From positions 28,554 to 92,553 of IMG/VR virus record IMGVR_UViG_3300046096_000928: 64,000 nt of DNA; one strand, written 5' to 3'. The notes beneath the pieces are model-generated. The model was not told where the DNA came from. It saw nothing but the letters and a program-made list of their open reading frames with translations, and ran no database searches. Positions 1 to 45,017 of the stretch are shown piece by piece. The position numbers and the translations under genes were made by a program. This stretch comes from a virus. The number at the start of each line of letters is the position of its first letter. The stretch's first letter is position 1.

Positions 1-1
1 T

Positions 2-867: not shown

Positions 868-880
868 GAGTAAAAGAAAA

Positions 881-2316: not shown

Positions 2317-2330
2317 TCTTTTAAAAAAAT

Positions 2331-2366
2331 AAAAAAAGATGATCTGTATACAGATCATCTTTTTTT
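2331..2366. terminator. bidirectional terminator, perfect 36-bp palindrome
   Basis: Bases 2331-2348 are the exact reverse complement of 2349-2366, with seven A at one end and seven T at the other. It lies between the head operon and the convergent pentapeptide gene, so it can stop transcription from both sides. Confidence 0.8.
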
Positions 2367-2374
2367 ATTGCCGA

Positions 2375-3082
2375 CTAATCTATTCTAAGAAGTTTTTTAA
2401 ATTTTTTCTTGGCATCGGCATTATCAAAAATACCGTTATTAATAAGATCAATTTGATTAAATATGGCATCAGTAAGATCAGCATGACTAAAATTAGCACC
2501 GTTAAATTCAGCATCGATAAAATCAGCTTTTTTCAATGAACAATAACTAAAATTAGTAACTTTGAGATCAGAGGATAATCCTATTTTCGATCTCAAGAAA
2601 ATAATTTTATTCAAATAAGAACCATTAAATTGGACTCCTTTTAAATTAGATTTATAAAAATCTGATTTACCTCTAAAGTAGCTACCGTAAAATAGTGAGT
2701 TTTCTAAATTGACGTTCTCAAACTCGCTATTTTCAGTTTTCAATCGATTAAAGATAGAACCACTTAAAACAGAATCGGTAAAACTCACTAAATCCCAATT
2801 ACTATCAGTTGCATTTATTCCTGCTAAATGGCAACCTTCAAAGAATACATTCGCCATTTGTGAATCAGCTAAATTACTCCCACGAAAACTACAATTTCTA
2901 AATAGACAATCACAAAAAGTAGCTTTGCTCAAATCTACATCTTCAAAAAAGCAGTCCTCTATTTGAGAACGATCTATTCTAAGCCCAGTCAAATCTTCCC
3001 CACTAAGAATCAAGTCTTTTAAATCTTCTTTCGATACCTTTGTAAATGACTTATATTCTGCTAAAAATTCTTCTCTATTCAT
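2375..3082 (-). CDS. pentapeptide-repeat protein
   Basis: A 235-residue protein made largely of degenerate five-residue repeats of the A(D/N)LXX kind, for example 'DLSKATFCDCLFRNCSF' and 'ADFIDAEFNGANFSHADL'. Such proteins fold as a square right-handed beta helix. The first ~30 residues are helical and lie outside the repeats. There is no signal peptide or membrane segment. Function cannot be read from the repeats. Some pentapeptide proteins mimic DNA and bind gyrase, which is only a possibility here. It overlaps the gene upstream of it by four bases (ATGA). Confidence 0.9.
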   Translation of the reverse strand: MNREEFLAEYKSFTKVSKEDLKDLILSGEDLTGLRIDRSQIEDCFFEDVDLSKATFCDCLFRNCSFRGSNLADSQMANVFFEGCHLAGINATDSNWDLVSFTDSVLSGSIFNRLKTENSEFENVNLENSLFYGSYFRGKSDFYKSNLKGVQFNGSYLNKIIFLRSKIGLSSDLKVTNFSYCSLKKADFIDAEFNGANFSHADLTDAIFNQIDLINNGIFDNADAKKKFKKLLRID

Positions 3083-3408
3083 TTTTTTTTACTCCTATTT
3101 TCATTTATTAAATCTAATTCAACCTGTATAGCTGGAATCAAAACAATCAACTGATTTTTTAGGCTTTTTCTTCTTAAGGAATTAGCTAAATAAAAGTCAT
3201 CGGGATGGGTATAATTTTCTATTCCAAACTCTCTCAAATATTCTTCGGCTTCCTTATCATTCACAAAATCAAAACTATGTAAAAAAGGAAACAACCCATC
3301 TATTACAGATTTTGCTTGTATAAAAGCTAATAAGGGCTCTATATACGATGCTTCTAAAGGAATCACCGACTGAACTATCTCAACTATTTTCTGTTTATAT
3401 TTATTCAT
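3079..3408 (-). CDS. hypothetical protein (109 aa)
   Basis: A helical, mildly hydrophobic protein of unknown family with a basic tail (NENRSKKK). It overlaps the pentapeptide gene by four bases, so the two are probably translated together. A 52-codon gene lies just upstream on the same strand. Confidence 0.65.
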   Translation of the reverse strand: MNKYKQKIVEIVQSVIPLEASYIEPLLAFIQAKSVIDGLFPFLHSFDFVNDKEAEEYLREFGIENYTHPDDFYLANSLRRKSLKNQLIVLIPAIQVELDLINENRSKKK

Positions 3409-3411
3409 TTT

Positions 3412-3570
3412 TCAATCCAAACAATATTCTACTGTTTTTACATTAGTTAATACTTTTGTTTCCCAAAACTTCTTACATTTTTCTTCTCGTAAGTCATCGT
3501 AGGTCAAAGACAATATTTTATCATCTTTGAAAATATCAACACCATCTCTAAATATCTGTAGTTTAAACAT
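3412..3570 (-). CDS. hypothetical small protein (52 aa)
   Basis: An uninterrupted 52-codon frame from ATG (3568-3570) to TGA (3412-3414). AGAG lies upstream of the start and the next gene begins three bases after the stop. The product starts 'MFKLQIFRDGVDIFKDD' and ends 'VKTVEYCLD'. Spacing and strand fit a three-gene leftward operon with the two genes downstream. No family recognised. Confidence 0.5.
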   Translation of the reverse strand: MFKLQIFRDGVDIFKDDKILSLTYDDLREEKCKKFWETKVLTNVKTVEYCLD

Positions 3571-3621
3571 ATCTCTTTTTATCAAGTACACTTTTGATTA
3601 TACAGAAATATCTTAAGAGTG

Positions 3622-3918
3622 TTAATCTATTTTAATGATCTTTATTTCTACTACGGGGTAAATTTCTATTATATCTACTCCTAACGCAATGGCGATAAGG
3701 TTTAGGTTATCTTTAGCTATCGTCGGCACTAATCCTGTTTCTATTTTCTCTAACAAGCCATTACTAATGCCTGTTAAGTCTGCTAATCCTTTTCTAGTTA
3801 CATTTCTAGTTTTTCTTAAGTTACTTAAATTCACTCCTAACGATTTATCCCATCTTAAAAAAATAGCGTTTTCTAAATGTACGGTAATCATAACATTATA
3901 TTTAATTATTTTCTGCAT
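3622..3918 (-). CDS. XRE-family transcriptional regulator
   Basis: A 98-residue protein with a helix-turn-helix at about residues 32-57 ('LRKTRNVTRKGLADLTGIS' then 'LLEKIETG'), the standard Cro/CI-type fold. The start may be the internal ATG at 3889-3891. The segment before the HTH ('FLRWDKSLGVNL') is shared with the XRE gene at 19014 ('YFKWDKSKGLIL'), so the two are paralogues. It is divergent from the methylase-like gene at 3965, which is the classic arrangement for a regulator acting on the shared 47-bp gap. Confidence 0.85.
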   Translation of the reverse strand: MQKIIKYNVMITVHLENAIFLRWDKSLGVNLSNLRKTRNVTRKGLADLTGISNGLLEKIETGLVPTIAKDNLNLIAIALGVDIIEIYPVVEIKIIKID

Positions 3919-3964
3919 TTTAGTTTAACATAGTTTTATAAACAATTTCATTTTAAGGAAAAGA

Positions 3965-5008
3965 ATGGATTTACAATTAGGATTTTTGGCAGAGGAAAAT
4001 GAAATCATAGAGACTGAGGTTAAAGTAGAAAAAATAGAACAGCTCGTATTAACTCAAGGAATAATTGAACCTAGAAAAGCAAAAGAAGATAGTACAGCTT
4101 TAAATTATTGGAAGTCATGGAAGCCTAAAGATAGAAGTAAGTTAGGGAAAGCTGATCACACTTACAAATTAACTCATGGTTGGTTAATGCCTTATTTAGT
4201 TGGCATTGACGAGTTCACAAATAAACGTTGGGAATATTGGGCAAAAGTACAAAGATTATCGCCCGTTGCCTATTATGAATATTTAACTAAAGGTGTAACT
4301 GATAAGTTTGTAGCGGAAGCTATACACTGTCACGATTACCCTGAAATAAGTTTTTCTGAAGATACTACTACTTTAAATTATCTTAATTCTGTTATTGATT
4401 TAATTTGTGGCGATCGCTCAATTAGCGGAATAGATGCTTTTGAATTTCTATTAGATTGGTTATTATTTGGGTTCGGGCATGAAGATTTTACAGAATTACC
4501 AGAATCCCCTTCTCGTGACAAGGCAATAAATAAGAAACTGTATGAATATTTTGATTTATTCCCTTTGTTAATAAATCCTTATGATTATTTTGGGCTTATG
4601 TTACCTGAGTTATTTAATCAAGGGCGTAATCAAAAAGTTGGTTTTTTCCCAACTCCTATGACTATCTGTATCGCTATGACTGAAATGATTAGCGGGAATG
4701 ATAAACCTACTATTCAAAGATTTCAAGAATCGTCAGCTGGTACTGGAAGTCTTGTTTTAGCATGGTCAAAAAAAGGATTATGTGCAAGTATCACAGAATT
4801 ATCTAATACTTGCACTAAGGCTATTTTGGTTAATTGTTATCTTTACGCCCCACAATACGCACGTCCTTTATTTTATTTAGCAGAACAAAGTACTTTTATT
4901 TGTGGGAATGCTCTCAGTAATGAGATATTCCACGATTACCACGCTAAATATAAAAAAATAATTGCTGATGATTTCCGAAATCATTTTGCTGTTTTAACTA
5001 AAAAATAA
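3965..5008 (+). CDS. N6-adenine methylase-like protein, possibly inactive
   Basis: A 347-residue protein with a methylase region at about 217-320. 'GFFPTPMTICIAMTEM' is typical of HsdM-type enzymes just before the SAM site, and 'SSAGTGSLVLAW' is motif I. The catalytic (N/D)PP(Y/F) motif is not visible, and the protein stops soon after 'GNALSNEIF', where that motif would come. I read it as a truncated or non-catalytic methylase. The N-terminal 200 residues are of unknown type. It contains a HIP1 site (4410). Its 3' end overlaps the convergent endolysin gene by 15 bases. Confidence 0.7.
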   Translation: MDLQLGFLAEENEIIETEVKVEKIEQLVLTQGIIEPRKAKEDSTALNYWKSWKPKDRSKLGKADHTYKLTHGWLMPYLVGIDEFTNKRWEYWAKVQRLSPVAYYEYLTKGVTDKFVAEAIHCHDYPEISFSEDTTTLNYLNSVIDLICGDRSISGIDAFEFLLDWLLFGFGHEDFTELPESPSRDKAINKKLYEYFDLFPLLINPYDYFGLMLPELFNQGRNQKVGFFPTPMTICIAMTEMISGNDKPTIQRFQESSAGTGSLVLAWSKKGLCASITELSNTCTKAILVNCYLYAPQYARPLFYLAEQSTFICGNALSNEIFHDYHAKYKKIIADDFRNHFAVLTKK

Positions 5009-5428
5009 ATCAAGCTCTGCTTTTCTACGACGGTCAAGTCCTGCGGAGGGCTTCCCGTTTATTTTATTCCACCTTTTTAATTCTGTCTCAGCACTTTGAT
5101 AATCTTTTCGATTTATTTTTTTTCGAAGAGTTGATTCTTTAAAAGCATTTAGTCCTACATTAAAAGCAAAACTTGTTAAAGCTCCTAATTGTTGTTTAGT
5201 TAACGGCACTGTTACCAAATCCTCTATTTGTTTTGATAACTTTTCTAACTCAAGATAAAGCATCCCTTCCGCTTTCACTCTATTCATAGTGTCACTCATT
5301 TTTACTGATTTCCCATTTACTCTTGTAAACCCATAACCAATCGTAGGCACTCCCGCAGGACATAAATATGCCTTCTCCCTAAAACTTTCAAACTCCTTCA
5401 CTAAATCAAATGCTTTTTTCTCTATCAT
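4994..5428 (-). CDS. endolysin, GH24 lysozyme
   Basis: A 144-residue T4-type muramidase that cuts the glycan strand of peptidoglycan at lysis. The catalytic Glu is in 'LVKEFESFREKAY' (E12 region), followed by 'CPAGVPTIGYGFT', the signature loop with the catalytic Thr. The family's usual Asp is a Cys, as in many lambdoid-type relatives. The C-terminal 'LTSFAFNVGLNAFKESTLRKKIN' matches the conserved helix pair. No signal peptide or SAR segment is visible, so release needs a holin. Repeat copy A lies immediately upstream. Confidence 0.92.
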   Translation of the reverse strand: MIEKKAFDLVKEFESFREKAYLCPAGVPTIGYGFTRVNGKSVKMSDTMNRVKAEGMLYLELEKLSKQIEDLVTVPLTKQQLGALTSFAFNVGLNAFKESTLRKKINRKDYQSAETELKRWNKINGKPSAGLDRRRKAELDLFFS

Positions 5429-5521
5429 TTTTAATACTAATTGTAGTAAGGCATATTACAATTCTATTTTACATCTATTTTCCATAGGCTTTTTTCTATG
5501 CTTATTGTATTTACGATAGAG

Positions 5522-5707
5522 AAAAGCCAATTGACGAGTTCCTATCAACAGGTTACCTGATATTAGGTTTCCTGTTATTAGGTTACCTGTTAACAGGTTT
5601 TCGATATACATAATTAAGATCAATAAACTCATAATTAAAAAAATAAAGATCAAGTTAATTATGCAAAAAATTTATTTTTTCTTTTTTTCTGTTTAAGAAA
5701 AGAAGCC
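5522..5707 (-). repeat. dispersed repeat family, copy A
   Basis: Read on the minus strand this ~185-bp block begins GGCTTCTTTTCTTAAACAG. It continues through CATAATTAACTTGATCTTT and TATGTATATCGAAAACC, then four 15-bp units rich in CCTGTTAACAGG-type palindromes, and ends GGAACTCGTCAATTGGC. It is nearly identical to copy B (43805-43989, plus strand) and related to copies C and D. A 65-codon frame (5456-5653, minus) runs through it: a hydrophobic helix, then NLLTG-NLITG-NLISG-NLLIG. Copy A points toward the endolysin gene. It may be a promoter/leader element, a structured RNA or a small membrane-protein gene. Confidence 0.7.
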
Positions 5708-5845
5708 ATTGAAAAATAACTAATTATTCTCTGTATTGCTGATTATTTAGCTAAATAAGGCTAATGAGGTAAGTAAAGGATTAATCATACTTAAAGAAAC
5801 TTTAAAAGAGTAAAATAATGAAATAAAGCAATGATCAAATAAAGA

Positions 5846-6043
5846 ATGAGAAAAGAGCAAAGACATCCGTTAGCACATATTGACAGGCAAATAGTCAAAA
5901 GTTTTTTTGTGGAAGGAATGAGTGATTTCAATTTGACTGAATTAGCTCGGTTAAAAATCCATCACTATAATTTTTCAGGTGCAACCGATATACGATTCGA
6001 TCTCGATAGCATTATGAATCAATGGGAATTAACTGAAGATTAA
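5846..6043 (+). CDS. hypothetical small protein (65 aa)
   Basis: A charged 65-residue protein ('MRKEQRHPLAHIDRQIV...') with no recognised family and only a weak ribosome site. It is isolated between repeat copy A and a leftward gene. Kept because the composition looks protein-like and the space has no competing frame. Confidence 0.45.
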   Translation: MRKEQRHPLAHIDRQIVKSFFVEGMSDFNLTELARLKIHHYNFSGATDIRFDLDSIMNQWELTED

Positions 6044-6129
6044 CTTTACGAAAAAACTAAAGTAATTTATGCGAAAGAGATTTTTCTAATTTCGATTCTG
6101 AGAGTGAAGAAGATTGGAGTTAATAAAAA

Positions 6130-6149
6130 ACCTCCTCTGATCGGGAGGT
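6130..6149 (-). terminator. terminator-like hairpin
   Basis: On the minus strand ACCTCC and GGAGGT pair around an 8-base loop and are followed by a run of T. It lies downstream of the BRO gene, behind a second hairpin (6187-6233). Confidence 0.6.
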
Positions 6150-6186
6150 AAAATAATTTAATTAATAGGTTATAATGGAAACAACA

Positions 6187-6233
6187 AAACCCGACACAGC
6201 TCTGCTAAGTATCTGCAAAGAATCGGGTTACTC
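6187..6233 (-). terminator. hairpin after the BRO gene
   Basis: AACCCGA at one end pairs with TCGGGTT at the other, starting five bases after the BRO stop codon; on the minus strand TTTTG follows. The ~33-base loop is long for a plain terminator and holds its own short complementary stretches. Confidence 0.5.
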
Positions 6234-6237
6234 AATT

Positions 6238-6960
6238 TTAGGCTTTGGCTAGTGCACCGTATTTTTTATCTAAATAAACTGGCATTTTAAGGGGGACATA
6301 TATTGTCTCCAAACATTGTGCAAAATATCCTAATTCACAGAAGTCATAGGCTTTTATAACCCGTGTCCCACGATGATTGTCAAGATGATAGATAGCCGTA
6401 CTACTTTCAACTGCCCATTCTTTACTACTGCGATACGAACTCCAATGAATACCAACCGACCCATCGAGTAAATCAAATATATCTATTGGATAACCTAGCT
6501 TTTCTACTCGCAACATCAAATAGTTTGCTTTTTCTGCGATGCACCAAGTATTAGGTTGCTTAACTAGATTTTTCTCTAAATCCATAATGCGATCTGAGTA
6601 AACGGTAATTGCTTTTTTAGGTTGCTCAACTGAATAACTACCAGTTTGTCTAATACTTGGTAAGATTTCCTCAAATACCCATTTTTGAAATTGTTTAGCT
6701 GTTTCTAAACGAGATTTAAAGATTAGTTGATAAATACCAGCCTCTTTAGTAATTATCAATACCTTCTCAATTCTTGGCTTGTTTTCCCCATATCTGATGG
6801 TGGGCATTTGATGTAATGTCAAATAATCTGGATCGATTAAGTCTTTTATCGCTGTTTTGGGAGTAGCATAACCTAATGCTTTTGCTACATCGATCGCCAC
6901 TGGATTACCATCTACAAAACGAATATCTTGACTATCAAACTGAAATCGTGTTAAATTCAT
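6238..6960 (-). CDS. BRO-N domain antirepressor-like protein
   Basis: A 240-residue protein with a BRO-N domain at about residues 1-110: 'GNPVAIDVAKALGYATPKTA', then 'ITKEAGIYQLIFKSR' and 'FQKWVFEEILPSIRQTG'. BRO-N domains bind DNA and occur in phage antirepressors and viral regulators. The C-terminal half is of a type seen in cyanobacterial phage proteins, with no assigned role. AGGAG precedes the ATG. The leader upstream (6961-7060) has a hairpin and sequence shared with the leaders of the genes at 12191 and 30720. Confidence 0.85.
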   Translation of the reverse strand: MNLTRFQFDSQDIRFVDGNPVAIDVAKALGYATPKTAIKDLIDPDYLTLHQMPTIRYGENKPRIEKVLIITKEAGIYQLIFKSRLETAKQFQKWVFEEILPSIRQTGSYSVEQPKKAITVYSDRIMDLEKNLVKQPNTWCIAEKANYLMLRVEKLGYPIDIFDLLDGSVGIHWSSYRSSKEWAVESSTAIYHLDNHRGTRVIKAYDFCELGYFAQCLETIYVPLKMPVYLDKKYGALAKA

Positions 6961-7060
6961 ATTAACTCCTAGTTGCTTAACTACTTTTAGGGGTTACGGA
7001 ATGATATACAGCAATTCATAATTAACAGTTATGGGTTGCTTTTCCGTTTCTATAACTATT
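6961..7060 (-). promoter_or_regulatory. structured leader of the BRO gene (leader 1)
   Basis: On the minus strand, GAAAAGCAACCCATAA pairs partly with TTATGAATTGCT to form a hairpin at 7010-7040. CCCCTAAA and an AGGAG ribosome site follow. The same order and much of the same sequence precede the gene at 30720, and a version with different bases but the same pairing precedes the gene at 12191. It could be an attenuator, a translational switch or a protein-binding RNA. Confidence 0.6.
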
Positions 7061-7109
7061 TATATATAAGTCTTTGAAGATTTTAAATCTACTTAATTAG
7101 TCTGTAATT

Positions 7110-7784
7110 CTAACTGTTCAATTTTATTTTGGTTGCTGATATTCTTTGATTAATTATGTTTAAATATTCTTCTTCTTTTTCGATTAGAACATAATTAAAA
7201 CCTGTTTCTATTGCACTTACTGCCGTTGTACCACTGCCTCCAAAAGGATCAAGTACAATTCCATTAGGGGGAGTAATTAACTCGATGAAATATGCCATTA
7301 AATGCCGTGATTTAACTGTCGGATGATCATTATTGACTAATCCTTTACAATTCCTATCAGTTGTGGATGCTTTGGCTTTGTAGTATATGCTATTGACTGT
7401 ATCTGTATCAAAAGGTAAGTTTTTAAAATATCTCGCCGCCGTTCCTTTATCCTCAAAATAAACACCGCTTTTATACGGATTACTTTTAAATTTTACTGAA
7501 TTATCCTTCGTGTATGTATCGTAATTATAGTCACTTGCTCTACTGACAGATTCCCCACTTTGATCGCCAATAACATTAACAGGACAATCTTTAGCGTGAT
7601 TATTTTCTTGGCAGTTAATACCACATGATAAAATTAAATTAGCTGGATAAAGACCGATGTTAGGATTGTGACCATCTTCTGATCCTGTTTCTTTTCCTAG
7701 CCCACTGTGATAAATATTAGTCTTCTCTTTTTTTTGAAAAACCACAAGGCACTCTTTTATTAGTACCAATCCTACCTGCATCAA
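7110..7784 (-). pseudogene. DNA methyltransferase, C-terminal part (frameshifted)
   Basis: The second half of a site-specific DNA methyltransferase whose first half is at 7717-8397. It carries the SAM-binding motif 'VLDPFGGSGTTAVSAIE' and the final 'NYVLIEKEEEYLNIINQRI'. With motif I near the C-terminus and DPPS near the N-terminus, the enzyme is of the beta order (N4-cytosine or N6-adenine). The halves are joined by a run of eight T at 7728-7735. With seven, the reading would be continuous ('CGFSKKEKTNIYHSG'). A mutation, transcriptional slippage or a sequencing error would each explain it. Confidence 0.8.
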
Positions 7785-8397
7785 TATTTAATCCGCCCGT
7801 ACCGTGTTTAAGAATATTTCTAACAATACTAGATTCTGAACATTTTTTCTGCCCCAACCACCAACCTTCGATCGCAGGTTTCAACGCAGGAGTTTTCCAA
7901 CCATCCCATCGCTTTGCTAATTCACTTGATGATTTTGTGATTTTAGGGTTATCTTGCCATGAACCACCAAGTGCATTCGTACCATCCTTACATCCCCTTG
8001 CGGATGTAAGGATGCCTATAACCTCTCTTTCTTCTCCTAACATCCGATCAATCTGCTTACTCACATCTTGCCCTTTTTGAAATCCGCCGCCATTTGCATG
8101 GTGTACAATGTCAATAATTCTAAAACCAGCTAATTCTAAAGCCATACCAGTCCAGTGAGAGGTTCTAGGAATACTCCATACTAAACCAATTGCACCAGGC
8201 TTCATGGTACGCATGGCTTCGTTCATTACCTCTGATAACCAATTAATCCAATTAAGCATACCACCCTTGTTATCATCCCATTTCATGGACATAAAGCTGA
8301 TCGAAGAAGGTGGATCAGTAATTAAAGAATCAAAATAATTATCGGGGAATGTTTTTAATACTTTTAAACAATCACCATGCAAAACTTGGTTAATCAT
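7717..8397 (-). pseudogene. DNA methyltransferase, N-terminal part (frameshifted)
   Basis: This half contains 'MINQVLHGDCLKVLKTFPD', the catalytic 'TDPPSSISFMSMKWD', and 'GLVWSIPRTSHWTGMALELAGF', all typical of the phage-borne methyltransferase family. It ends at TAA just after the poly-A run that shifts the frame. The ATG begins ten bases after a 21-bp-stem hairpin. Both halves look well preserved apart from the single shift, so loss is recent or the joint protein is still made by slippage. Confidence 0.82.
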
Positions 8398-15756: not shown

Positions 15757-15785
15757 TTGCTAGAATAAATCAAATAAGATATAGT
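15757..15785 (+). promoter_or_regulatory. early-type promoter family, copy 1
   Basis: TTGCTA, a 17-base spacer GAATAAATCAAATAAGA and TATAGT. The spacer matches the four copies at 16065, 17079, 21796 and 22487. This is the weakest -35 of the five. It drives the zinc-ribbon gene. Confidence 0.65.
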
Positions 15786-15813
15786 CAAAAATGAGACTTA
15801 AAGAGTAAAAAAT

Positions 15814-16056
15814 ATGAAAATAAATAGAGTTTGTGAAAAGTGCGGGGGTATTCATATAGTAAAGGCTGGACGTAGTAAATCGAATTATCAGCTTTATCAA
15901 TGTCAGGATTGCCGTCATAAATTTAGTGAAACAGGACTAAAAATAGGCAGACAAAAAATTAATTTTAATTGTACTCAATGCGGGACAAAAGCTATTGCTA
16001 AAGGATTATGCAGAAAATGTTACACTAAATCACTCAATAAAAATAAATTAATTTAG
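15814..16056 (+). CDS. double zinc-ribbon protein
   Basis: An 80-residue basic protein with two zinc ribbons: C-x-x-C at residues 7-10 with 'CQDCRHKF', and 'CTQCGTKAIAKGLCRKC'. The first ribbon resembles the DNA-binding N-terminus of IS1-type transposases (InsA), but no transposase follows. Ribosome-site quality is modest (AAAGAG). Likely a small DNA-binding regulator. Confidence 0.75.
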   Translation: MKINRVCEKCGGIHIVKAGRSKSNYQLYQCQDCRHKFSETGLKIGRQKINFNCTQCGTKAIAKGLCRKCYTKSLNKNKLI

Positions 16057-16064
16057 AATGTACC

Positions 16065-16093
16065 TTGACAAAATAAATCAAATAAGAGACAAT
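16065..16093 (+). promoter_or_regulatory. early-type promoter family, copy 2
   Basis: TTGACA, spacer AAATAAATCAAATAAGA (17) and GACAAT. It lies inside the first codons of a longer frame, which is why the gene start is set at 16136. Confidence 0.8.
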
Positions 16094-16135
16094 GACAATA
16101 TAAACAAAAAAACAAGTACACAGAGGTTAAAAATT

Positions 16136-16663
16136 ATGAATAACTACGAATTAAAGTTGAACATCGATATAGCTACTATGAGTTACAGAAAACTACAAAA
16201 AGAGTTGAGACGTTTAAAAGAAACATACGGAGTGACAAACATTAAATTAAATTCAAAAAGAACAGTTTTAGCCGCCGAATATAAAAGACTAATGATGATA
16301 GGGCATGAAGAAAAAGAATCTCCAAAACCAACCTTTAACGATCAAGTAGAAATCGTTGCAGAATTAGTAGGGACTAAAGCTACTAACATTTATCAATTAA
16401 TGCGTGATCCTATCTCTTTAAAAGAAGCGATTGAGATTATGTCTTGCGATTTAGACATTGAACCTTATCAATTTGGCATTCTAATTGAAGATACTTTCAA
16501 CATTTGTGATTTAGATTCCTATCTTAATGCAGAGAATGTTGATTTACATTGTTTTCTAAGAGAGATGGCACAAATGACAGAAAAAGAGGTAACAGCAGAA
16601 TGTGAAGCTAGAAATGCAATTACTTATGCAGAAATAGCAAGAGCTTACGGGATCGCTGCTTAA
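16136..16663 (+). CDS. hypothetical early protein with shared N-terminal motif (175 aa)
   Basis: I start at ATG 16136 after AGAGG, because a frame beginning at 16058 would have the promoter inside it. The N-terminus ('MSYRKLQKELRRLKETYGVTNIKLN' split as YRKLQ...TNIKLNSKRTVLAAEY) is shared with the gene at 17140 (YKELQ...TSVKLNASQEVLQAEY). This defines a ~40-residue helix-turn module of SAP-like look. The rest is helical and acidic. Function unknown. Confidence 0.7.
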   Translation: MNNYELKLNIDIATMSYRKLQKELRRLKETYGVTNIKLNSKRTVLAAEYKRLMMIGHEEKESPKPTFNDQVEIVAELVGTKATNIYQLMRDPISLKEAIEIMSCDLDIEPYQFGILIEDTFNICDLDSYLNAENVDLHCFLREMAQMTEKEVTAECEARNAITYAEIARAYGIAA

Positions 16664-16693
16664 AATACGAAAACAAATAATACGGAGTAATAA

Positions 16694-16733
16694 CATTGAT
16701 TGATAAAGCTATTAATAGCTTTATCAATCAATG
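16694..16733. repeat. perfect 40-bp palindrome over a start codon
   Basis: Bases 16694-16713 are the exact reverse complement of 16714-16733. The TTG start of the next gene (16696) lies inside the left arm, with GGAG just upstream at 16684-16687. As RNA the hairpin would bury the start. Confidence 0.65.
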
Positions 16734-17028
16734 TGAAAAATTTACTTCCTTTGTTAAAAAAACAAAAGAGCAAGTAATAGAAATGGCAAGTAATGATAGT
16801 ACTATGGAATCTATTTTTGAATTAGTATCTAATGAACAAGGAATCACACAAAAAGAACAAATTAAATCTTTAACTGCTCAGTTTTCTCTTAAAGATTATC
16901 AATCAATCTTATTTGAGATTTTGCCAAACTATACCTTATTTCAATTCTTATTAGATCGGACGGATTTAACTGATGAAGAAGCTTTATCAGAATTAGATTG
17001 TTATCACCAATTACAACCTCCTATTTAG
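16696..17028 (+). CDS. hypothetical protein with TTG start (110 aa)
   Basis: A helical protein ('IDKAINSFINQCEKFTSFVK...') with GGAG eight bases before a TTG codon. The first eleven codons are encoded by a perfect palindrome, so part of the N-terminus may owe its sequence to RNA structure. No alternative in-frame start lies close. Family unknown. Confidence 0.55.
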   Translation: MIDKAINSFINQCEKFTSFVKKTKEQVIEMASNDSTMESIFELVSNEQGITQKEQIKSLTAQFSLKDYQSILFEILPNYTLFQFLLDRTDLTDEEALSELDCYHQLQPPI

Positions 17029-17078
17029 ACATAGCTTTAATTAAGATTTATTTTGTCAAAAAAATATTTTGAAATACC

Positions 17079-17107
17079 TTGACAAAATAAATCAAATAAG
17101 AGATAAT
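17079..17107 (+). promoter_or_regulatory. early-type promoter family, copy 3
   Basis: TTGACA, spacer AAATAAATCAAATAAGA (17) and GATAAT, the best match to consensus of the five copies. ATATAC-ACAAAAC sequence downstream is also shared. Confidence 0.85.
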
Positions 17108-17139
17108 AGTAATATACAAACAAAACAAAAGAAAAGATT

Positions 17140-17958
17140 ATGACTTATAAAGAATTGCAACAAGCATTAAAACAGTTCAAAGTGGAAGGTTTAACATCAG
17201 TTAAGTTAAATGCAAGTCAAGAAGTATTACAGGCTGAATACACTCAAGTAATCGAACAAATAGAAATTGACAAGCAACAACAAACAAAAGATGGTTTATT
17301 AGCAGTTGATCGTTTTATTGAGATTGTAGAAAAAACTTTAACTGTTAACCTTTATTGTGACTATAAGATAAATTGCTCAATGATTTTGGAAAATAAAGAG
17401 ATAACATTTAATGAATTAATTTCAAAAATAGCCAAAGATGCGGACGTAAACAGAATAGATTTACTTTTAGCAGTAGAGCAAAACATGGAATATGATTTTA
17501 GTTTTAATCTGACTGATTATCGTTATAATTCAATTGAGTACTTTTTAGAAGTCTTTATTTTTCATGTAGTAACAATCGAAAAAAGATTAAAAGAAATAAC
17601 TCCCCCCGTTTTAGAAATAGTAACTCCAGAAAATGATCCTTCTTTAGATACGGCTATTAAATCTTTTACAAAGGCTATTAATCATGTATTTAAACGATTT
17701 GGTAGCAATAATTTTACTACTGAGGAATCTTTAAGATTATCAATGGGTAATGAGGTGACAGTCAATGATTTTATTAAATTTCTTAATCTAAACACTGGTT
17801 TTGATCTTACTGAATTTATGGAATACTTAGAATATCATCTTGAGGATCAATACCAATATTTGATACAATATTCAAGTATTGATTATGGTAAATATCCGCT
17901 TAAAATGATTTTACAAGATTTTGCTTATTCTATTGATGTTTATCAGTTAATTGCCTAA
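17140..17958 (+). CDS. hypothetical early protein, paralogue of 16136 N-terminus (272 aa)
   Basis: The N-terminal ~40 residues match the gene at 16136 (YKELQQALKQF, then SVKLNASQEVLQAEY). The remainder is helical with two similar halves of about 110 residues, each with a D-x-x-x-F-x-x-x-I stretch and an aromatic tail ('YNSIEYFLEVFIFHV'; 'YGKYPLKMILQDFAYSI'). No family recognised. A perfect palindrome follows. Confidence 0.7.
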   Translation: MTYKELQQALKQFKVEGLTSVKLNASQEVLQAEYTQVIEQIEIDKQQQTKDGLLAVDRFIEIVEKTLTVNLYCDYKINCSMILENKEITFNELISKIAKDADVNRIDLLLAVEQNMEYDFSFNLTDYRYNSIEYFLEVFIFHVVTIEKRLKEITPPVLEIVTPENDPSLDTAIKSFTKAINHVFKRFGSNNFTTEESLRLSMGNEVTVNDFIKFLNLNTGFDLTEFMEYLEYHLEDQYQYLIQYSSIDYGKYPLKMILQDFAYSIDVYQLIA

Positions 17959-17960
17959 TC

Positions 17961-18000
17961 ATTTAAAAGTTACTTAGAAATTTCTAAGTAACTTTTAAAT
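17961..18000. terminator. perfect 40-bp palindrome after 17140 gene
   Basis: Bases 17961-17980 are the exact reverse complement of 17981-18000. No T tract follows (CTGCC), so it is either a 3'-end stabilising hairpin or a DNA site rather than a simple terminator. Confidence 0.6.
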
Positions 18001-18039
18001 CTGCCAAAGAAATAGTAATTAAAAATAAAAGAGTTAAAA

Positions 18040-18387
18040 ATGATTGATTTATTATTTGAAGAAGTTAATAAATTTTGTAAAGTAGATAAGGAACAAATTA
18101 CTAAGCTATATAGACATAAAGATTTGAGAGAATTTCTAAATGAGTTAATCTTAACTACTGATTTTGACTTAACAGACGATTTACAGGCTATTGATTATTT
18201 AAGAAGCAATGATCCTACTTTTAAAAAATCGATTCAAATAGCCAATGAATTAGGTATTTATCCAAAAGAGTATAGTTCCGTATTATTAGCCTCTATTTTA
18301 AAACGTTTCAATATATCTCAAGCAATACTCAGGCATTTTGAACAATTCCATAACGCTTATAAAAAATCAAAATTAGAAAATAAATAA
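18040..18387 (+). CDS. hypothetical protein (115 aa)
   Basis: A helical protein related in style to the early proteins before it ('NDPTFKKSIQIANELGIYPKEYSSVLLASIL'). It starts 40 bases after the palindrome. No family recognised. Confidence 0.65.
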   Translation: MIDLLFEEVNKFCKVDKEQITKLYRHKDLREFLNELILTTDFDLTDDLQAIDYLRSNDPTFKKSIQIANELGIYPKEYSSVLLASILKRFNISQAILRHFEQFHNAYKKSKLENK

Positions 18388-18394
18388 ATAAAAC

Positions 18395-18967
18395 ATGATT
18401 ATTACTCGTGATTTAAAGGATAACATCGATATATTAAATGACTGTGTTTATTGGCTACAAAATCATAATGAAAATAACCTTGAATATAACCGACCTGTTT
18501 TAATTAGTGGCTGTCGTTTTATAGCCTATCGTTTCCCTAATAATAATGGACAATTGGCGATCGCCAAAGTCTCAACTGGTAATCCTATTATTAATTCCGC
18601 CATAAATATTGTTAATCCGTTTGTGATCGATTTTTATCTTGACTTTGAAAAGGATTACATCATAAACTTCGATCAAGATTTCTCACAAGATTCGATCTAC
18701 CAATCTATCTATAACCTAACAGTTGAGAAAATTAAAAATTTAAAATCAATACTTATTGGTTTTAAATTACAAAATAGAAAAGCCTTAGAATATGCCAACG
18801 ATTTTCTCGGTCGTACATACGCACCTTTATTTCAATTAACTGATTTTCTCGGCAAAAGTTTAGATAAAAATGAGCTGTTAGACATCTTTAATCAGCAATT
18901 GTCAGATGATGATTACCAACTTACGATTAATCATTTAAAAGCTTTTGAAACACCTAAAACTCTATAG
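18395..18967 (+). CDS. hypothetical protein (190 aa)
   Basis: Seven bases after the previous gene and presumably cotranscribed. It mixes beta and helix ('NRPVLISGCRFIAYRFPNNN') with a helical C-terminus. It contains a HIP1 site (18557). No family recognised. Confidence 0.65.
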   Translation: MIITRDLKDNIDILNDCVYWLQNHNENNLEYNRPVLISGCRFIAYRFPNNNGQLAIAKVSTGNPIINSAINIVNPFVIDFYLDFEKDYIINFDQDFSQDSIYQSIYNLTVEKIKNLKSILIGFKLQNRKALEYANDFLGRTYAPLFQLTDFLGKSLDKNELLDIFNQQLSDDDYQLTINHLKAFETPKTL

Positions 18968-19013
18968 TTTAAAATGCCTTAAATAATATAAACTAAATTT
19001 AGGATAAAATATA

Positions 19014-19319
19014 ATGTTTTGCATTATTACTTTAATTAATGTTATGGACACTCAAAACAACCCACAATTTAGCATCGAAGATATTGCCTATTTTAAATGG
19101 GATAAATCAAAAGGGCTTATTTTGAGAAAATTACGCACCGAAAAGAATTTAACCATGAAACAATTATCTCAAAAAATATCTTTACTTGGTGTTGAGTGCA
19201 GTGTAGATTATCTTGGTACTTTAGAACACGGCAGAGTTGAAAGTCTCAAAGTGGATAAATTGTTAGCAATAGTACATTGTTTAAATGCTTCCTTTGGTTA
19301 TTTTTCTTCTAAATCATGA
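19014..19319 (+). CDS. XRE-family transcriptional regulator
   Basis: A 101-residue protein with a Cro/CI-type HTH at about residues 37-75 ('LRTEKNLTMKQLSQKIS', 'LGTLEHGRVESLKVDKLLAI'). The start may be ATG 19044. 'YFKWDKSKGLIL' before the HTH is shared with the regulator at 3622. It lies within the five-promoter early cluster and is a reasonable candidate for its repressor. Confidence 0.85.
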   Translation: MFCIITLINVMDTQNNPQFSIEDIAYFKWDKSKGLILRKLRTEKNLTMKQLSQKISLLGVECSVDYLGTLEHGRVESLKVDKLLAIVHCLNASFGYFSSKS

Positions 19320-19337
19320 ATCTTTTTTTATTTTCCC

Positions 19338-19366
19338 TTGACATCGTTTTTAAAACACGGCAAGAT
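19338..19366 (+). promoter_or_regulatory. promoter-like site
   Basis: TTGACA, a 17-base spacer and CAAGAT. A second TTGACA stands exactly 60 bases further on (19398). The spacer differs from the five-copy family. Confidence 0.5.
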
Positions 19367-19436
19367 ATTAATATGAGTTAATCAACTCTAAAGAACCTTG
19401 ACATAATCACAAATAATTAAATAAGGAAAGGGCAAG

Positions 19437-19712
19437 ATGATGTCTTTAGAATTGATTACTAAATACCTTTCAGTTTTGGATAACAACCAATTAGGCAAAG
19501 CTGAAATAAAAACGTTGGTGAATCTCTTAAAAGAATTTGAAAAAATACCTTCTGAAATTGAGCGGTTTCAATTAAAAATTATAGAACTTATTGATGACAA
19601 GGCGATAAGTGGCTACATCGAGTTAGATGATTGGCTTTATCACATTGAAAGAAATAAACTCTATAAAATAATCTCTATCGATCCTGCCACTCAAAAGAGT
19701 TTATCGAATTAG
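19437..19712 (+). CDS. hypothetical protein (91 aa), probably frameshifted at its end
   Basis: A helical acidic protein ('LITKYLSVLDNNQLGKAEIK...') ending at TAG 19712. One extra A in CAAAAGAG (near 19690) would continue it in the next frame as 'KEFIELEKEIEDSRDKLNDY...' to 19780, a typical coiled-coil tail. So the visible C-terminus may be the product of a one-base deletion. Confidence 0.6.
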   Translation: MMSLELITKYLSVLDNNQLGKAEIKTLVNLLKEFEKIPSEIERFQLKIIELIDDKAISGYIELDDWLYHIERNKLYKIISIDPATQKSLSN

Positions 19713-19795
19713 AAAAAGAGATTGAAGACAGTCGAGATAAGCTAAATGACTATATACGGACTGAAAATGAACAAATATAGAAGTTATGCTTAAAA

Positions 19796-19921
19796 ATGCA
19801 GGAACTTTATGATCGTTTAGCTTCAGCAGTTGAAAACCAAACAGCTATTAATTCAGACGGCTTTGTCTTTGTTAATAAAAACAATAATTTTTATCACACA
19901 GTAAACAATAAAGAGAAATAA
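19796..19921 (+). CDS. hypothetical small protein (41 aa)
   Basis: A 41-codon frame ('MQELYDRLASAVENQTAIN...') ending two bases before the ATG of the broken KilA-N gene. Protein-like composition but no clear ribosome site. Confidence 0.4.
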   Translation: MQELYDRLASAVENQTAINSDGFVFVNKNNNFYHTVNNKEK

Positions 19922-19923
19922 AA

Positions 19924-20283
19924 ATGCACATCCCAAACAGTCTTTTAAAAGACTTGAATATCGGAATAGTAACTTATCACGGTTATCAAATAACTTACCG
20001 TATCAAAGATGGTTATGTCAATGCTACACAGATAGCACAACTCTTTAATAAGATAGTTTGGGAGTGATTACGTTATAACTTAACTCAAGAGTGTATCAAT
20101 ACTTTAGAGATTGAATTAAGTACGGATAAATTAACCGAAATTGGTTTAGGCTCACCCAAAAATGGGGGAGGTCTTTGGATTCACCCTAGTTTAATTATTT
20201 CTTTAGCAAAATGGATAAAAAATGAAGAGTTTATTTATTGGTGTGAAAGTGAGTTCACTAATAAAAGAAAATTAGTAGCTTAG
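19924..20283 (+). pseudogene. KilA-N domain gene with an in-frame stop
   Basis: Translation gives a KilA-N pattern: 'IKDGYVNATQIAQLF' then, after a TGA at 20065-20067, 'CINTLEIELSTDK' and 'GGGLWIHPSLIISLAKWI', ending at TAG 20281-20283. The stop falls where KilA-N proteins have a Trp ('WEWLR'-type), so TGG to TGA is the likely change. All other codons are open. The gene is dead unless TGA is read through. Confidence 0.75.
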
Positions 20284-20289
20284 AACGAT

Positions 20290-20382
20290 TGCCACAGCGT
20301 AAGTCACTAAATACCGCTACAAAAAGATAGTCTCAACTGAAACTTGAGACTATCAATAATTAACCTTTCACAGGAGTGAATA
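20290..20382 (+). promoter_or_regulatory. duplicated structured leader, copy 1
   Basis: Shares GCGTAAGTCA-TAAATA-CGCTA with the leader at 20918. It also has a strong hairpin GATAGTCTCAA/TTGAGACTATC with a different loop, and an AGGAG site before the ATG. It precedes the broken KilA-N gene at 20383. Confidence 0.6.
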
Positions 20383-20595
20383 ATGATTTTAACATACAAA
20401 GACAGTGAAATTCAGCAACGAGATCAAGATAGTTATGTAAATTTAACTCAAATGGCAAAAGCGAACAATGTCAGAGTTTCTAACTGGTTGCAGTTAGAAA
20501 GTTCAAAAGCCTATATTCAGGCACTTGAAGCCGATACGAATATAATCGCATCGGAACTTTTGATCATAAAGAAAGGTTGTAGCTTTAAATTTTGA
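20383..20595 (+). pseudogene. KilA-N gene, N-terminal part (deletion/frameshift)
   Basis: The first 55 residues nearly match the intact gene at 21007 ('MILTYKD-EIQQRD-D-YVNLTQMAKAN'). After 'KKG' a deletion removes about a dozen residues and shifts the frame. The frame of the next gene picks up with 'VALNFEQWIMQKQRRGKK', matching 'VAIAFAQWI' of the intact copy. The ancestor was therefore a KilA-N protein fused to a T5orf172 domain. Confidence 0.8.
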
Positions 20596-20605
20596 ACAAT
20601 GGATA

Positions 20606-20908
20606 ATGCAAAAACAGCGAAGAGGAAAAAAGATAATCGGAGATATATATATTTTCCTTGACAACGGGAATAATGCCTACAAAATCGGATTTACTACTAA
20701 CTTGAAGGAAAGAGAAAAGCAACATAAAACAAGCAATCCTTTTCTTGAATTAATTAAAGTTTATTCTTCTCAACGAATAGAGAATGAACAACTGTTACAT
20801 CAAAAATTAAGAGATTATCAAATCAAAGGAACTACTGAATGGTATGTAAAAAAGCCACAAGTTTTGAGAATTAAATTAACTATTCTCAAAACACCCCAAA
20901 TAGATTAG
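20606..20908 (+). CDS. T5orf172 (GIY-YIG-like) domain fragment
   Basis: A 100-residue frame with 'YIFLDNGNNAYKIGFTTNLKEREKQH', then 'ENEQLLHQKLRDYQIKGTTEWY', the standard T5orf172/MUG113 layout related to GIY-YIG nucleases. It is the C-terminal domain of the broken KilA-N gene at 20383, separated by the frameshift. The domain itself is complete, so it could still be made if translation starts at ATG 20606, though no ribosome site is evident. Confidence 0.7.
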   Translation: MQKQRRGKKIIGDIYIFLDNGNNAYKIGFTTNLKEREKQHKTSNPFLELIKVYSSQRIENEQLLHQKLRDYQIKGTTEWYVKKPQVLRIKLTILKTPQID

Positions 20909-20917
20909 ATAAATTGA

Positions 20918-21006
20918 CCACAGCGTAAGTCATTAAATATCGCTAAAAGATAGTCTCAAATATCAGTTGAGACTATCACTAATTAACTTTAATAGGAGAG
21001 TAGATT
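20918..21006 (+). promoter_or_regulatory. duplicated structured leader, copy 2
   Basis: Same design as 20290-20382: GCGTAAGTCATTAAATATCGCTA, hairpin GATAGTCTCAA/TTGAGACTATC with a different loop, then AGGAG. It precedes the intact KilA-N gene. Confidence 0.6.
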
Positions 21007-21732
21007 ATGATCTTAACATACAAAGACCAAGAAATTCAGCAACGGGATCGAGATGGCTATGTGAATTTAACTCAAATGGCAAAAGCTAACGAAGTAGAAG
21101 TAAGTAATTGGTTGAGACTAGATAGCTCAAAAGCCTATATAGAAGCGTTAGAAGCCGACCTTCAGATATGCAGATCGAACCTTTTGATCGTGAATAAAGG
21201 GGGAATTGCTAATCAACAAGGTACATGGGCGCATCCTTTAGTAGCGATCGCCTTTGCACAATGGATAAGCCCACAATTTCATATCTGGTGTAATAAATGT
21301 ATCAAAATAATTTTTGAAACTGGTAGTTATTCTGTTTCAAACGTGAAATCCGAACCTATACAACAACCAATAATCCCTGTTCATGTTGTTGCTTTAGAAA
21401 AATCACGAGCGATTACTGAAATTGATAATTCATTATCTAATAAACACCCAAGACTTGCCCAACTTTTAATTGATCATATTGTTTCTGACCTTATAGGAAG
21501 TGAAAAGTTATTAAATGGCGATCGTCTTCGTGGTGTTGTAGAAATTGCAGAAGCAATGGGTTTTAAAAATGCAACTATCAAACGTTGTAATTTAGGCAAG
21601 TACGTTAAACGATTATGTGGACATTTAGCTAGTCAAGAGGAACGATTAGTACACGGCACAATGAGAGCGGTTGCGTGTTACCCAGAAAATAATGAAGAAG
21701 TAAAAACTGCTATCTTTAAATTCTTTAATTAA
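21007..21732 (+). CDS. KilA-N domain protein
   Basis: A 241-residue protein with a full KilA-N domain (residues ~1-105: 'DGYVNLTQMAKANEVEVSNW', 'GGIANQQGTWAHPLVAIAFAQWISP'), a DNA-binding fold common in phage antirepressors. The C-terminal part ('GDRLRGVVEIAEAMGFKNA', 'YVKRLCGHLA') is HTH-like. It is the only unbroken copy of three KilA-N genes in 1.8 kb. It contains a HIP1 site (21244). Confidence 0.88.
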   Translation: MILTYKDQEIQQRDRDGYVNLTQMAKANEVEVSNWLRLDSSKAYIEALEADLQICRSNLLIVNKGGIANQQGTWAHPLVAIAFAQWISPQFHIWCNKCIKIIFETGSYSVSNVKSEPIQQPIIPVHVVALEKSRAITEIDNSLSNKHPRLAQLLIDHIVSDLIGSEKLLNGDRLRGVVEIAEAMGFKNATIKRCNLGKYVKRLCGHLASQEERLVHGTMRAVACYPENNEEVKTAIFKFFN

Positions 21733-21795
21733 TTACATATTAAAATTTCTGATAATACAATCAACTATTTATTAGAAATTTTAATTAAAAGTATA

Positions 21796-21824
21796 TTGAC
21801 AAAATAAATCAAATAAGAGATAAT
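21796..21824 (+). promoter_or_regulatory. early-type promoter family, copy 4
   Basis: TTGACA, spacer AAATAAATCAAATAAGA (17) and GATAAT. It drives the gene at 21856. Confidence 0.85.
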
Positions 21825-21855
21825 AGTATTATATAAACAAAACAAGAATAGAATC

Positions 21856-22056
21856 ATGAACAACCCAACTATCGAAACAAAAACTAAAAAAGAGTTAGTC
21901 AATGAGTATATAGGCAAACAAGCTAATTTATACTTCCGTACTTATAAAGCAGTTAAAGCAGAAGCAGAGTTAGAAAATATCGAATTATCAACTGAGGACT
22001 TACGCACAATCTCAACAAGTATTTTTATAAGCACTCAAAGAAAATTCAATCTTTAA
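21856..22056 (+). CDS. hypothetical small early protein (66 aa)
   Basis: Small charged protein ('MNNPTIETKTKKELVNEYIGKQ...') directly behind a family promoter, 32 bases from the -10 box. No family recognised. The layout (strong promoter, tiny acidic/basic protein) is typical of phage host-takeover genes, which is only suggestive. Confidence 0.65.
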   Translation: MNNPTIETKTKKELVNEYIGKQANLYFRTYKAVKAEAELENIELSTEDLRTISTSIFISTQRKFNL

Positions 22057-22114
22057 TCACTCAAAGGAAGTTTTTATGACTTCCTAAAAAACCAAAAATA
22101 ATAACAATAAAAAA

Positions 22115-22348
22115 ATGACTAAAATTAAATTAATCAAATCTTTATTGCATACATTCAAAAAAATTGATGGCGTAAGGATTAGTAATGCGGATACATTTTT
22201 CTTTATCCGATTTAAAGATAGATTACTTATAATCAAAGCTAAATCTGATAGTTTCCAACAACTAAGAGCAGGTTATACTTTACTCACTCAAATCCTTACT
22301 AAATTAGTTAATCCAAAATTAACCAGCCTTATTGAAAGTCATTATTGA
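22115..22348 (+). CDS. hypothetical small protein (77 aa)
   Basis: Second gene behind promoter copy 4. The pattern 'DTFFFIRFKDRLLIIKAKSDSFQQL' suggests a small alpha/beta fold. A long-stemmed hairpin follows. No family recognised. Confidence 0.6.
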   Translation: MTKIKLIKSLLHTFKKIDGVRISNADTFFFIRFKDRLLIIKAKSDSFQQLRAGYTLLTQILTKLVNPKLTSLIESHY

Positions 22349-22363
22349 TTCCAACTAAAATTA

Positions 22364-22417
22364 ATTAATTAAATAACTAAGCTATTTTGGAAAGATAAAC
22401 TTAGTTATTTAATTAAT
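22364..22417 (+). terminator. 18-bp-stem hairpin
   Basis: ATTAATTAAATAACTAAG pairs with CTTAGTTATTTAATTAAT around an 18-base loop. It ends the 21856-22348 unit. Confidence 0.65.
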
Positions 22418-22486
22418 AATGAATAAGGCTAAAACAAGGCTATTAATAGCCAAATAAATATCGAAAAAACTAATTTCAGAAATAAC

Positions 22487-22515
22487 TTGACAAAATAAAT
22501 CAAATAAGAGACAGT
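22487..22515 (+). promoter_or_regulatory. early-type promoter family, copy 5
   Basis: TTGACA, spacer AAATAAATCAAATAAGA (17) and GACAGT. It drives the gene at 22559. Confidence 0.8.
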
Positions 22516-22558: not shown

Positions 22559-22819
22559 ATGAAAGATAAACTTGTAAAATCTATTCTAAACCTACCAGAT
22601 GAGGATCGAAAAGTTGTAATAAAAAAAACGGCAGATATGTTAGCAGAACTTTTTCCAAAACGAAACGAAAAACCCACTTATAGTTTAGGATTTCAGAAAT
22701 ACGAAAAACTAAACAAAAAACAAAGAATGGCATTACAGACCAAGTTTTGGGGGAGACCTTTTAAAGATATTACAGAGGCTCTGGAAACTCAAACTATTAA
22801 GGAAATTTTAGCTAACTAA
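22559..22819 (+). CDS. hypothetical small early protein (86 aa)
   Basis: Helical basic protein ('LPDEDRKVVIKKTADMLAELF') with a distinctive 'WGRPFKDITEAL' stretch. A single-gene unit between promoter copy 5 and a terminator hairpin. No family recognised. Confidence 0.65.
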   Translation: MKDKLVKSILNLPDEDRKVVIKKTADMLAELFPKRNEKPTYSLGFQKYEKLNKKQRMALQTKFWGRPFKDITEALETQTIKEILAN

Positions 22820-22823
22820 AAAC

Positions 22824-22876
22824 AAAAATAATAACTAGGTTTATTCTCTCAAGATAACCTAGTTATTATTTTTATA
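22824..22876 (+). terminator. terminator, 18-bp stem
   Basis: AAAAATAATAACTAGGTT pairs with AACCTAGTTATTATTTTT around a 14-base loop. It ends the 22559 unit. Confidence 0.75.
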
Positions 22877-22942
22877 GGTTTCTCATCAGTTAAGCTAAAA
22901 CAAAGCCATTAATAGCCAAATAAACAGCTATAGAGAGAAGAA

Positions 22943-44287: not shown

Positions 44288-44857
44288 TTATACGATTGAT
44301 CTGATATATTTAAAATCAGTTAAAGGAGTTTGTTGGTGAACATTTCGCATGAACCATTCAAATTCATAAACAACATTAAGAGGAAAACTACTTAAGATAA
44401 GTCGGAGTCGATCTAATCGTGGTTCTTGAGAGCCGTGTATAAGATATAACCGCAAAAGATCGGACTTAATTTCCGTTTGTGTAGCAATCTCATTGAGACT
44501 AAGATTATAAACATTAGTGAGATAAATAAGAACGTCATTAACTGGGTGTGGTGAGTTTTCTCGCTTAGTGTAAAAAAGAAAAGGGTCATAAGAAATAGTG
44601 CCTTGTAAAACAGTATCTTTATGAACACGAGTTATCAATTTAAGGTACATAGAGTACATATTGTCGGGAAGTCTCGCTACGAGGTTATACCAGTTAGAAG
44701 AACTTATAGTACGGCCACTTTTTAGAGAATTGTAACCAGATGTACAAGTGATTCCCACATCACAAAATAAACGATTACGACTTATTTGAGATGCATACAT
44801 TAAAAATTCTATTGCTTTGAGAGGATGGACACATTCTAATAAAGTATTTTTTGCCAT
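44288..44857 (-). CDS. HTH-type regulator-like protein (189 aa)
   Basis: Contains two helix-turn-helix-like stretches: 'GITCTSGYNSLKSGRTISSS' (~35-55) and 'YNLSLNEIATQTEIKSDLLR' with 'GSQEPRLDRLRLILSSF' (~117-160). Divergent from the replication operon whose promoter lies 130 bases away, so it is a plausible repressor of that operon. No precise family recognised. Confidence 0.6.
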   Translation of the reverse strand: MAKNTLLECVHPLKAIEFLMYASQISRNRLFCDVGITCTSGYNSLKSGRTISSSNWYNLVARLPDNMYSMYLKLITRVHKDTVLQGTISYDPFLFYTKRENSPHPVNDVLIYLTNVYNLSLNEIATQTEIKSDLLRLYLIHGSQEPRLDRLRLILSSFPLNVVYEFEWFMRNVHQQTPLTDFKYIRSIV

Positions 44858-44988: not shown

Positions 44989-45017
44989 TTGACAGAAAAT
45001 AAGAAATACGATATAAA
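44989..45017 (+). promoter_or_regulatory. promoter of the replication operon
   Basis: TTGACA (44989-44994), a 17-base spacer and TATAAA (45012-45017), close to consensus. The first downstream start is ATG 45048. Confidence 0.8.

Follow-up and report, generated by a model that had tools for sequence, protein, structure and literature searches.

Five sigma-70-type promoters lie within 6.8 kb, all on the + strand, of a 64,000-nt window of viral DNA (bases 28,554-92,553 of the 92,553-bp IMG/VR record IMGVR_UViG_3300046096_000928), and the 17-bp spacers between their -35 and -10 boxes are nearly identical. The existence of the promoter family, its restriction to a single cluster of short orphan genes and a constraint on the spacer that goes beyond that on the boxes can be read in the sequence, and on balance the family is probably best understood as an asymmetric operator, embedded in promoters, of a phage-encoded regulator. 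Coordinates are those of the window unless the whole record or one of the related viral contigs L129, L133 and L140 is named, and the features are collected in Table 1.

Sequence and conservation of the promoter family

The five promoters, found where a preliminary description of the window had placed them (15757, 16065, 17079, 21796 and 22487), all have -35 and -10 hexamers within the 16-18 bp expected of sigma-70-type promoters, the spacing being 17 bp throughout. The boxes of four copies match the consensus at 10-11 of 12 positions or near that, and those of the fifth at 9 of 12. The spacer, earlier described as near-invariant, is identical in four of the five copies and differs at position 1 in the copy at 15757, leaving 16 of its 17 columns constant; the corresponding figures are 4 of 6 for the -35 box, 3 of 6 for the -10 box, 3 of 30 for the upstream flank and 2 of 12 for the first bases of the leader. 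Two features that had been ascribed to the whole family apply to the four strong copies and not to the one at 15757, namely the -10 pattern GA(T/C)A(A/G)T, in place of which 15757 has TATAGT, and a shared A-rich leader, roughly AGTAATATANAAACAAAACAA. The family spacer is not dyad-symmetric. Between the end of the -10 box and the start codon lie 28-43 nt, and the first genes behind promoters 1-5 are, as reported before, short and on the + strand (80, 175, 272, 66 and 86 aa).

A genome-wide motif scan, which the preliminary description had proposed, set these sites clearly apart, since with a position weight matrix (PWM) the five score 45-65 bits in the whole record and the next best match about 10 bits; PWM and 17-mer scans found no sixth family site in the 92.6-kb record. 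With up to three mismatches allowed, the window has 14 matches to the 17-mer, compared with 4.1 +/- 2.0 in shuffles. Per genome, third-order Markov simulations of the record yield 0 exact spacer matches and 0.02 with at most one mismatch, while the record itself has 4 and 6, respectively, 5 of them in promoter context. A chance likeness of AT-rich spacers, suggested by a genome of about 70% AT and by the recurrence of A-rich 17-mers across viral contigs, is refuted by these counts and by the orthologous conservation in a sister phage described below. Lone promoter-like matches as a class are not above chance (53 observed, 53.9 in shuffles) in such AT-rich DNA, and the evidence for a family therefore rests on the spacer. 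A near-match at 55222 (-) was rejected as a further copy, being inside a coding region and without boxes.

Equal conservation of the spacer away from the boxes had been named as an observation that would speak against an operator within promoters. The record holds no full copy of the spacer away from a promoter, and in other viral contigs none of 119 occurrences of the exact 17-mer sits, with correct spacing, between a hexamer resembling a -35 box and one resembling a -10 box; the 17-mer is not generically promoter-bound. One partial copy faces promoter 3, where an inverted exact copy of TTGACAAAATAAATC, 15 bp comprising the -35 box plus half the spacer, can pair with that promoter (17045-17093); it may be a second half-site or the product of a hairpin-templated mutation.

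When 2.9 million viral contigs were scanned with a degenerate DNA pattern, only the sister phage L129 and one near-identical contig were recovered, and an exact 23-mer scan of 85k prokaryote genomes added nothing. Searches with the 17140 protein in phage and plasmid databases, and with the zinc-ribbon protein of gene 15814 and the promoter DNA in phages, gave no real relatives, and an Rfam scan gave no match reaching the gathering cut-off. Microcystis phage Mic1, which has the best KilA-N match, was considered as a carrier and rejected, as it has other repeats and the promoter family is absent.

Concerted change of the spacer in a sister phage

The syntenic sister phage L129 (IMGVR_UViG_3300046313_000787), found by a further protein search with the 17140 product and 80% identical in its portal, carries three copies of the family, each upstream of an ortholog. 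At spacer positions 15 and 17, all five window copies have A,A and all three L129 copies have G,T, a concerted difference with P about 0.003 if differences were placed independently. Moreover, the orthologous pair 15757/7636 has a poor -35 box in both phages (TTGCTA and TTTTCA, respectively) and still retains the spacer except at the diagnostic positions 15 and 17 and at position 1. The orthologous spacers are identical at 41/51 positions, compared with 69/120 in their upstream flanks and 182/336 at four-fold sites, which gauge neutral divergence. The change in step at positions 15 and 17, together with the survival of the spacer despite a poor -35 box, argues that the spacer, and not the boxes alone, is constrained, and lends weight to the earlier view of one promoter family whose spacer is probably an operator. 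In a third related phage, L133, both the promoter family and the spacer are absent.

Spread of promoter-gene modules

Two modules, those of promoters 2 and 5, are gains whose breakpoints lie at the promoter or next to it, a route of spread that the preliminary description had missed. The 60 bp upstream of promoter 2 are identical at 50 of 60 positions to the 60 bp upstream of L129 7940, yet the gene of L129 7940 has its ortholog behind promoter 3 and not behind promoter 2; the block of promoter 2, 16136 and 16696 is thus extra in the window and joined at the promoter. The N-terminal residues (about 35) of the protein or proteins encoded in this block resemble those of the 17140 protein. In the case of promoter 5, the module is enclosed by direct repeats, and L133 has the upstream gene followed by one copy only of the flanking repeat. 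Module gains at promoter breakpoints indicate that duplication helped to build the family, and dispersal as cassettes has to be considered alongside co-regulation.

A comparable process is known from the intergenic regulatory cassettes of T4-type phages treated by Arbiol et al. in 2010, which reportedly combine a hairpin with a promoter and provide junctions at which genes are gained. Here too, gene modules have come or gone with breakpoints at regulatory sequence; the T4 cassettes, however, are said to belong to lytic T4-type phages, whereas here the spacer is the conserved part and the phage looks temperate.

Candidate binding proteins

The best-placed repressor candidate may be the orphan protein of gene 44288, which has the integrase on one side and, on the other, a divergent operon that leads on to the replication genes. 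Its counterpart in the sister contig shares 80% identity, and the remaining records searched gave no match. Its structure model, of low confidence (predicted local distance difference test score, pLDDT, 45), has two helix-turn-helix (HTH)-like bundles, and Foldseek gave no significant match, most of those returned being XRE-type HTH proteins; such a protein might suit an asymmetric site as its repressor. The replication promoter at 44989 was rejected as a family member, with a spacer matching at 11/17 only and not phage-diagnostic in the sister. Other possible binders are the zinc-ribbon protein 15814, the KilA-N proteins and the XRE protein 3622. No region-4 match over the cut-off, as a phage sigma factor would give, was found in the record.

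The XRE protein 19014, which had also been put forward as the regulator, is an unlikely binder of the family, since the promoter adjacent to its own gene has a different, palindromic spacer, which varies between homologues, and the family spacer is asymmetric. This dyad-symmetric 17-bp spacer is different at each of three homologous loci, being TCGTTTTTAAAACACGG in the window, TCTTGTTTAAAACAAGA in L129 and GTTCAAGTCATTTGAAC in L140, although L140 is not fully independent, sharing 8.2 kb at 100% with the left end of the record and possibly being the same genome or a neighbouring prophage. The spacer of the window is the least symmetric of the three (shuffle fraction 0.04). The leader behind this promoter (AATCAACTCTAAAGAACCT...) is conserved across the three loci, while the XRE proteins diverge (84% and 44% identity) and the spacers differ alongside. 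Such palindromic, locus-specific spacers show that operator-like sequences do occupy promoter spacers here.

Near the XRE gene, two genes at 19437-20285 (orthologs of L129 9371 and 9860) are broken by stops and are intact in L129. Directly before the start codon of each KilA-N gene lies a near-perfect palindrome, GATAGTCTCAA...TTGAGACTATC, which may be an operator for KilA-N or else a hairpin.

Weighing the explanations

As an operator, the family would work as follows. Host RNA polymerase of the sigma-70 type would read the promoters in this temperate-looking cyanophage, and the 17-bp spacer, probably with the edge of the -35 box, would be the asymmetric site bound by a single regulator that the phage encodes, in the simplest case an immunity or lytic-gene repressor blocking polymerase at every copy simultaneously. 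Copies would spread as promoter-plus-gene modules are duplicated or inserted, each new gene entering the regulon immediately. We infer from the pattern of conservation that protein binding causes the constraint, that the binder is phage-encoded and that it represses. A more specific version, in which a monomeric 44288 repressor with two HTH domains reads an operator spanning the whole spacer, and operator and repressor have co-diverged between the sisters into separate immunity groups, is rather unlikely as it stands.

The main rival is a mobile promoter cassette without a dedicated regulator, in which promoter and A-rich leader form a recombining block homogenised by gene conversion. It agrees with the extra block of promoter 2, 16136 and 16696 joined at the promoter, with the module of promoter 5 and 22559 between direct repeats that are single in L133, and with the leader bases common to the strong copies of the window. 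Nevertheless, within the same block the spacer is better conserved than the boxes and the leader, the duplicated genes have strongly diverged yet the spacers are identical, and the 15757/7636 pair retains the spacer without the -35 box or the leader of the other copies, so that this account is possible but doubtful. Selection for promoter strength only, a bent A-rich spacer and A-rich leader suiting the cyanobacterial polymerase and ribosome with no regulator involved, would explain the near-consensus -35 box, the 17-bp spacing and the A-rich leader, which resemble those of strong phage early promoters such as T4's, with a consensus beyond the boxes. On the other hand, boxes under such selection should be held at least as tightly as the spacer, and both the -10 and the -35 box vary more; the identical two-base shift at every copy of the sister phage is not what it predicts, the spacer is absent from the third phage of the group, and this account seems unlikely.

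Several points weigh against the operator explanation itself. The comparison between sister phages rests on a single phage (n=1), and the concerted change could be attributed to gene conversion or re-duplication, for which the gain of modules is independent evidence. The binders of the spacer are candidates only, and the divergent promoter of the 44288 candidate (44989) lacks the family spacer. Finally, the spacer has no dyad symmetry, and no full operator stands alone outside promoters.

Viral context and likely host

Tailed-phage genes recognised in the record include those for terminase, portal and a DnaB-like helicase, together with a large serine recombinase of the integrase type; the phage is probably temperate. 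The host is probably a cyanobacterium, because the terminase is closest to those of Nodularia phages (about 39% identity) and the cyanobacterial signature GCGATCGC is over-represented, with 21 occurrences in the record against 0.14 expected. The left 8.2 kb of the record (bases 1-8202) are 100% identical to contigs L139 and L140, which extend beyond its left end into a hemB-like gene, judged by eye, and a second XRE/KilA-N cluster. With its left end shared with and continued by these contigs, the record represents either a fragment or the edge of a prophage; L139 and L140, which extend it leftwards, hold no copy of the promoter family.

Other repeats are present in these genomes. One repeat, up to about 200 bp long and containing palindromes, is dispersed in four copies, two per strand. 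The TTG start of the 16696 frame is spanned by an inverted repeat of 21 bp, near-perfect and with a loop of 4 bases (16691-16736). L133, which lacks the promoter family, uses another module, at 644-5249, in which a hairpin and an A/C-rich leader together make up 97 nt; it recurs between short genes in at least five copies, whose stem arms vary compensatorily.

Table 1. Features of the window and of the sister phage L129 discussed in the text
Feature	Position	Strand	Sequence or remark
Promoter 1 (weak -35)	15757..15785	+	TTGCTA-GAATAAATCAAATAAGA-TATAGT; upstream of gene 15814; L129 7636 orthologous
Promoter 2	16065..16093	+	TTGACA-AAATAAATCAAATAAGA-GACAAT; upstream of gene 16136
Promoter 3	17079..17107	+	TTGACA-AAATAAATCAAATAAGA-GATAAT; upstream of gene 17140; ortholog L129 7940
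Promoter 4	21796..21824	+	TTGACA-AAATAAATCAAATAAGA-GATAAT; upstream of gene 21856; ortholog L129 11110
Promoter 5	22487..22515	+	TTGACA-AAATAAATCAAATAAGA-GACAGT; upstream of gene 22559
L129 promoter copies	L129 7636; 7940; 11110		upstream of the zinc-ribbon gene, the 17140 ortholog and the 21856 ortholog, respectively
Inverted exact copy of TTGACAAAATAAATC	17045..17059	-	faces promoter 3; hairpin pairing z = -3.98
80-aa double zinc-ribbon-like protein	15814..16056	+	first gene of the + cluster; Pfam matches weak, under the cut-offs; 79% identity to L129
Genes 16136 (175 aa) and 16696 (110 aa)	16136..17028	+	form with promoter 2 a module that L129 lacks
272-aa protein, no family found	17140..17958	+	51% identical in L129
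66-aa protein, function unassigned	21856..22056	+	86% identical in L129
86-aa protein, function unassigned	22559..22819	+	with promoter 5, a gained module
Left direct repeat of module 5	22364..22458	+	hairpin plus about 40 bp; single copy in L133
Right direct repeat of module 5	22822..22924	+	hairpin plus about 40 bp
XRE-type HTH protein	19014..19319	+	comparison; unlikely family binder
XRE-adjacent promoter	19338..19366	+	TTGACA-TCGTTTTTAAAACACGG-CAAGAT; partly palindromic spacer; just downstream of the XRE gene
KilA-N palindromes	20326-20354; 20949-20977; L129 10268-10296
Orphan 189-aa protein	44288..44857	-	two predicted HTH-like bundles; repressor candidate
Dispersed-repeat copies	5522-5758 (+); 43860-43988 (-); record about 554 and 10432		the two record positions lie before the window

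Known systems and significance

By analogy, the best functional precedent, without membership being implied, is SPBRE of Bacillus phage SPbeta, which is bound by the master repressor MrpR (PMC10516654). SPBRE is likewise short, A-rich and asymmetric, and it recurs ahead of genes that are mostly unknown, in a temperate phage with a serine integrase (PMC10516654), and a dispersed, conserved asymmetric element in the promoter regions of phage genes is found here as in SPbeta. In our own reading of the SPbeta sequence, SPBRE fills the 17 bp between sigma-type boxes matching at 11/12 at yonP and yorE, whereas several other SPBRE sites have poorer flanking boxes. The motifs differ (AATACAAAWAATATGTA for SPBRE, AAATAAATCAAATAAGA for the family spacer), and SPbeta has about ten sites genome-wide while here five lie in one cluster. 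The fold of MrpR is that of a tyrosine recombinase, and this record has no PF00589 match that would point to such a gene, although the record may be a fragment and divergence like that of MrpR could hide a relative.

Another close functional precedent, again by analogy and not as membership, is provided by the operators and stoperators of cluster A mycobacteriophages, which are asymmetric, oriented with transcription and in some cases inside promoters (PMC6550527, PMC9283540). In related phages the consensus changes along with the repressor (PMC6550527, PMC9283540), a monomer with two DNA-binding domains, and the 44288 protein, judging from its model, might be alike. Cluster A phages have 20-30 sites genome-wide, mostly without a promoter, whereas the five here are all in promoters, with one partial inverted copy in addition, and no homology of motif or protein was shown. 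The SAS/ESAS elements of cluster K mycobacteriophages are also asymmetric repeats upstream of small non-structural genes, and the consensus of the extended part differs between subclusters; they overlap the ribosome-binding site, however, with 3-7 bp between them and the start codon (PMC3203893). The -10 boxes of the present family, by comparison, end 28-43 nt before the start codons.

To our knowledge, gene regulation in temperate cyanophages has been little studied. A candidate operator is now defined, as are its diagnostic positions 15 and 17, and the candidate binders form a short list; with these in hand the control of lysogeny or of early genes becomes directly testable. Additionally, the family shows how acquired genes can enter existing control by arriving with their promoter.

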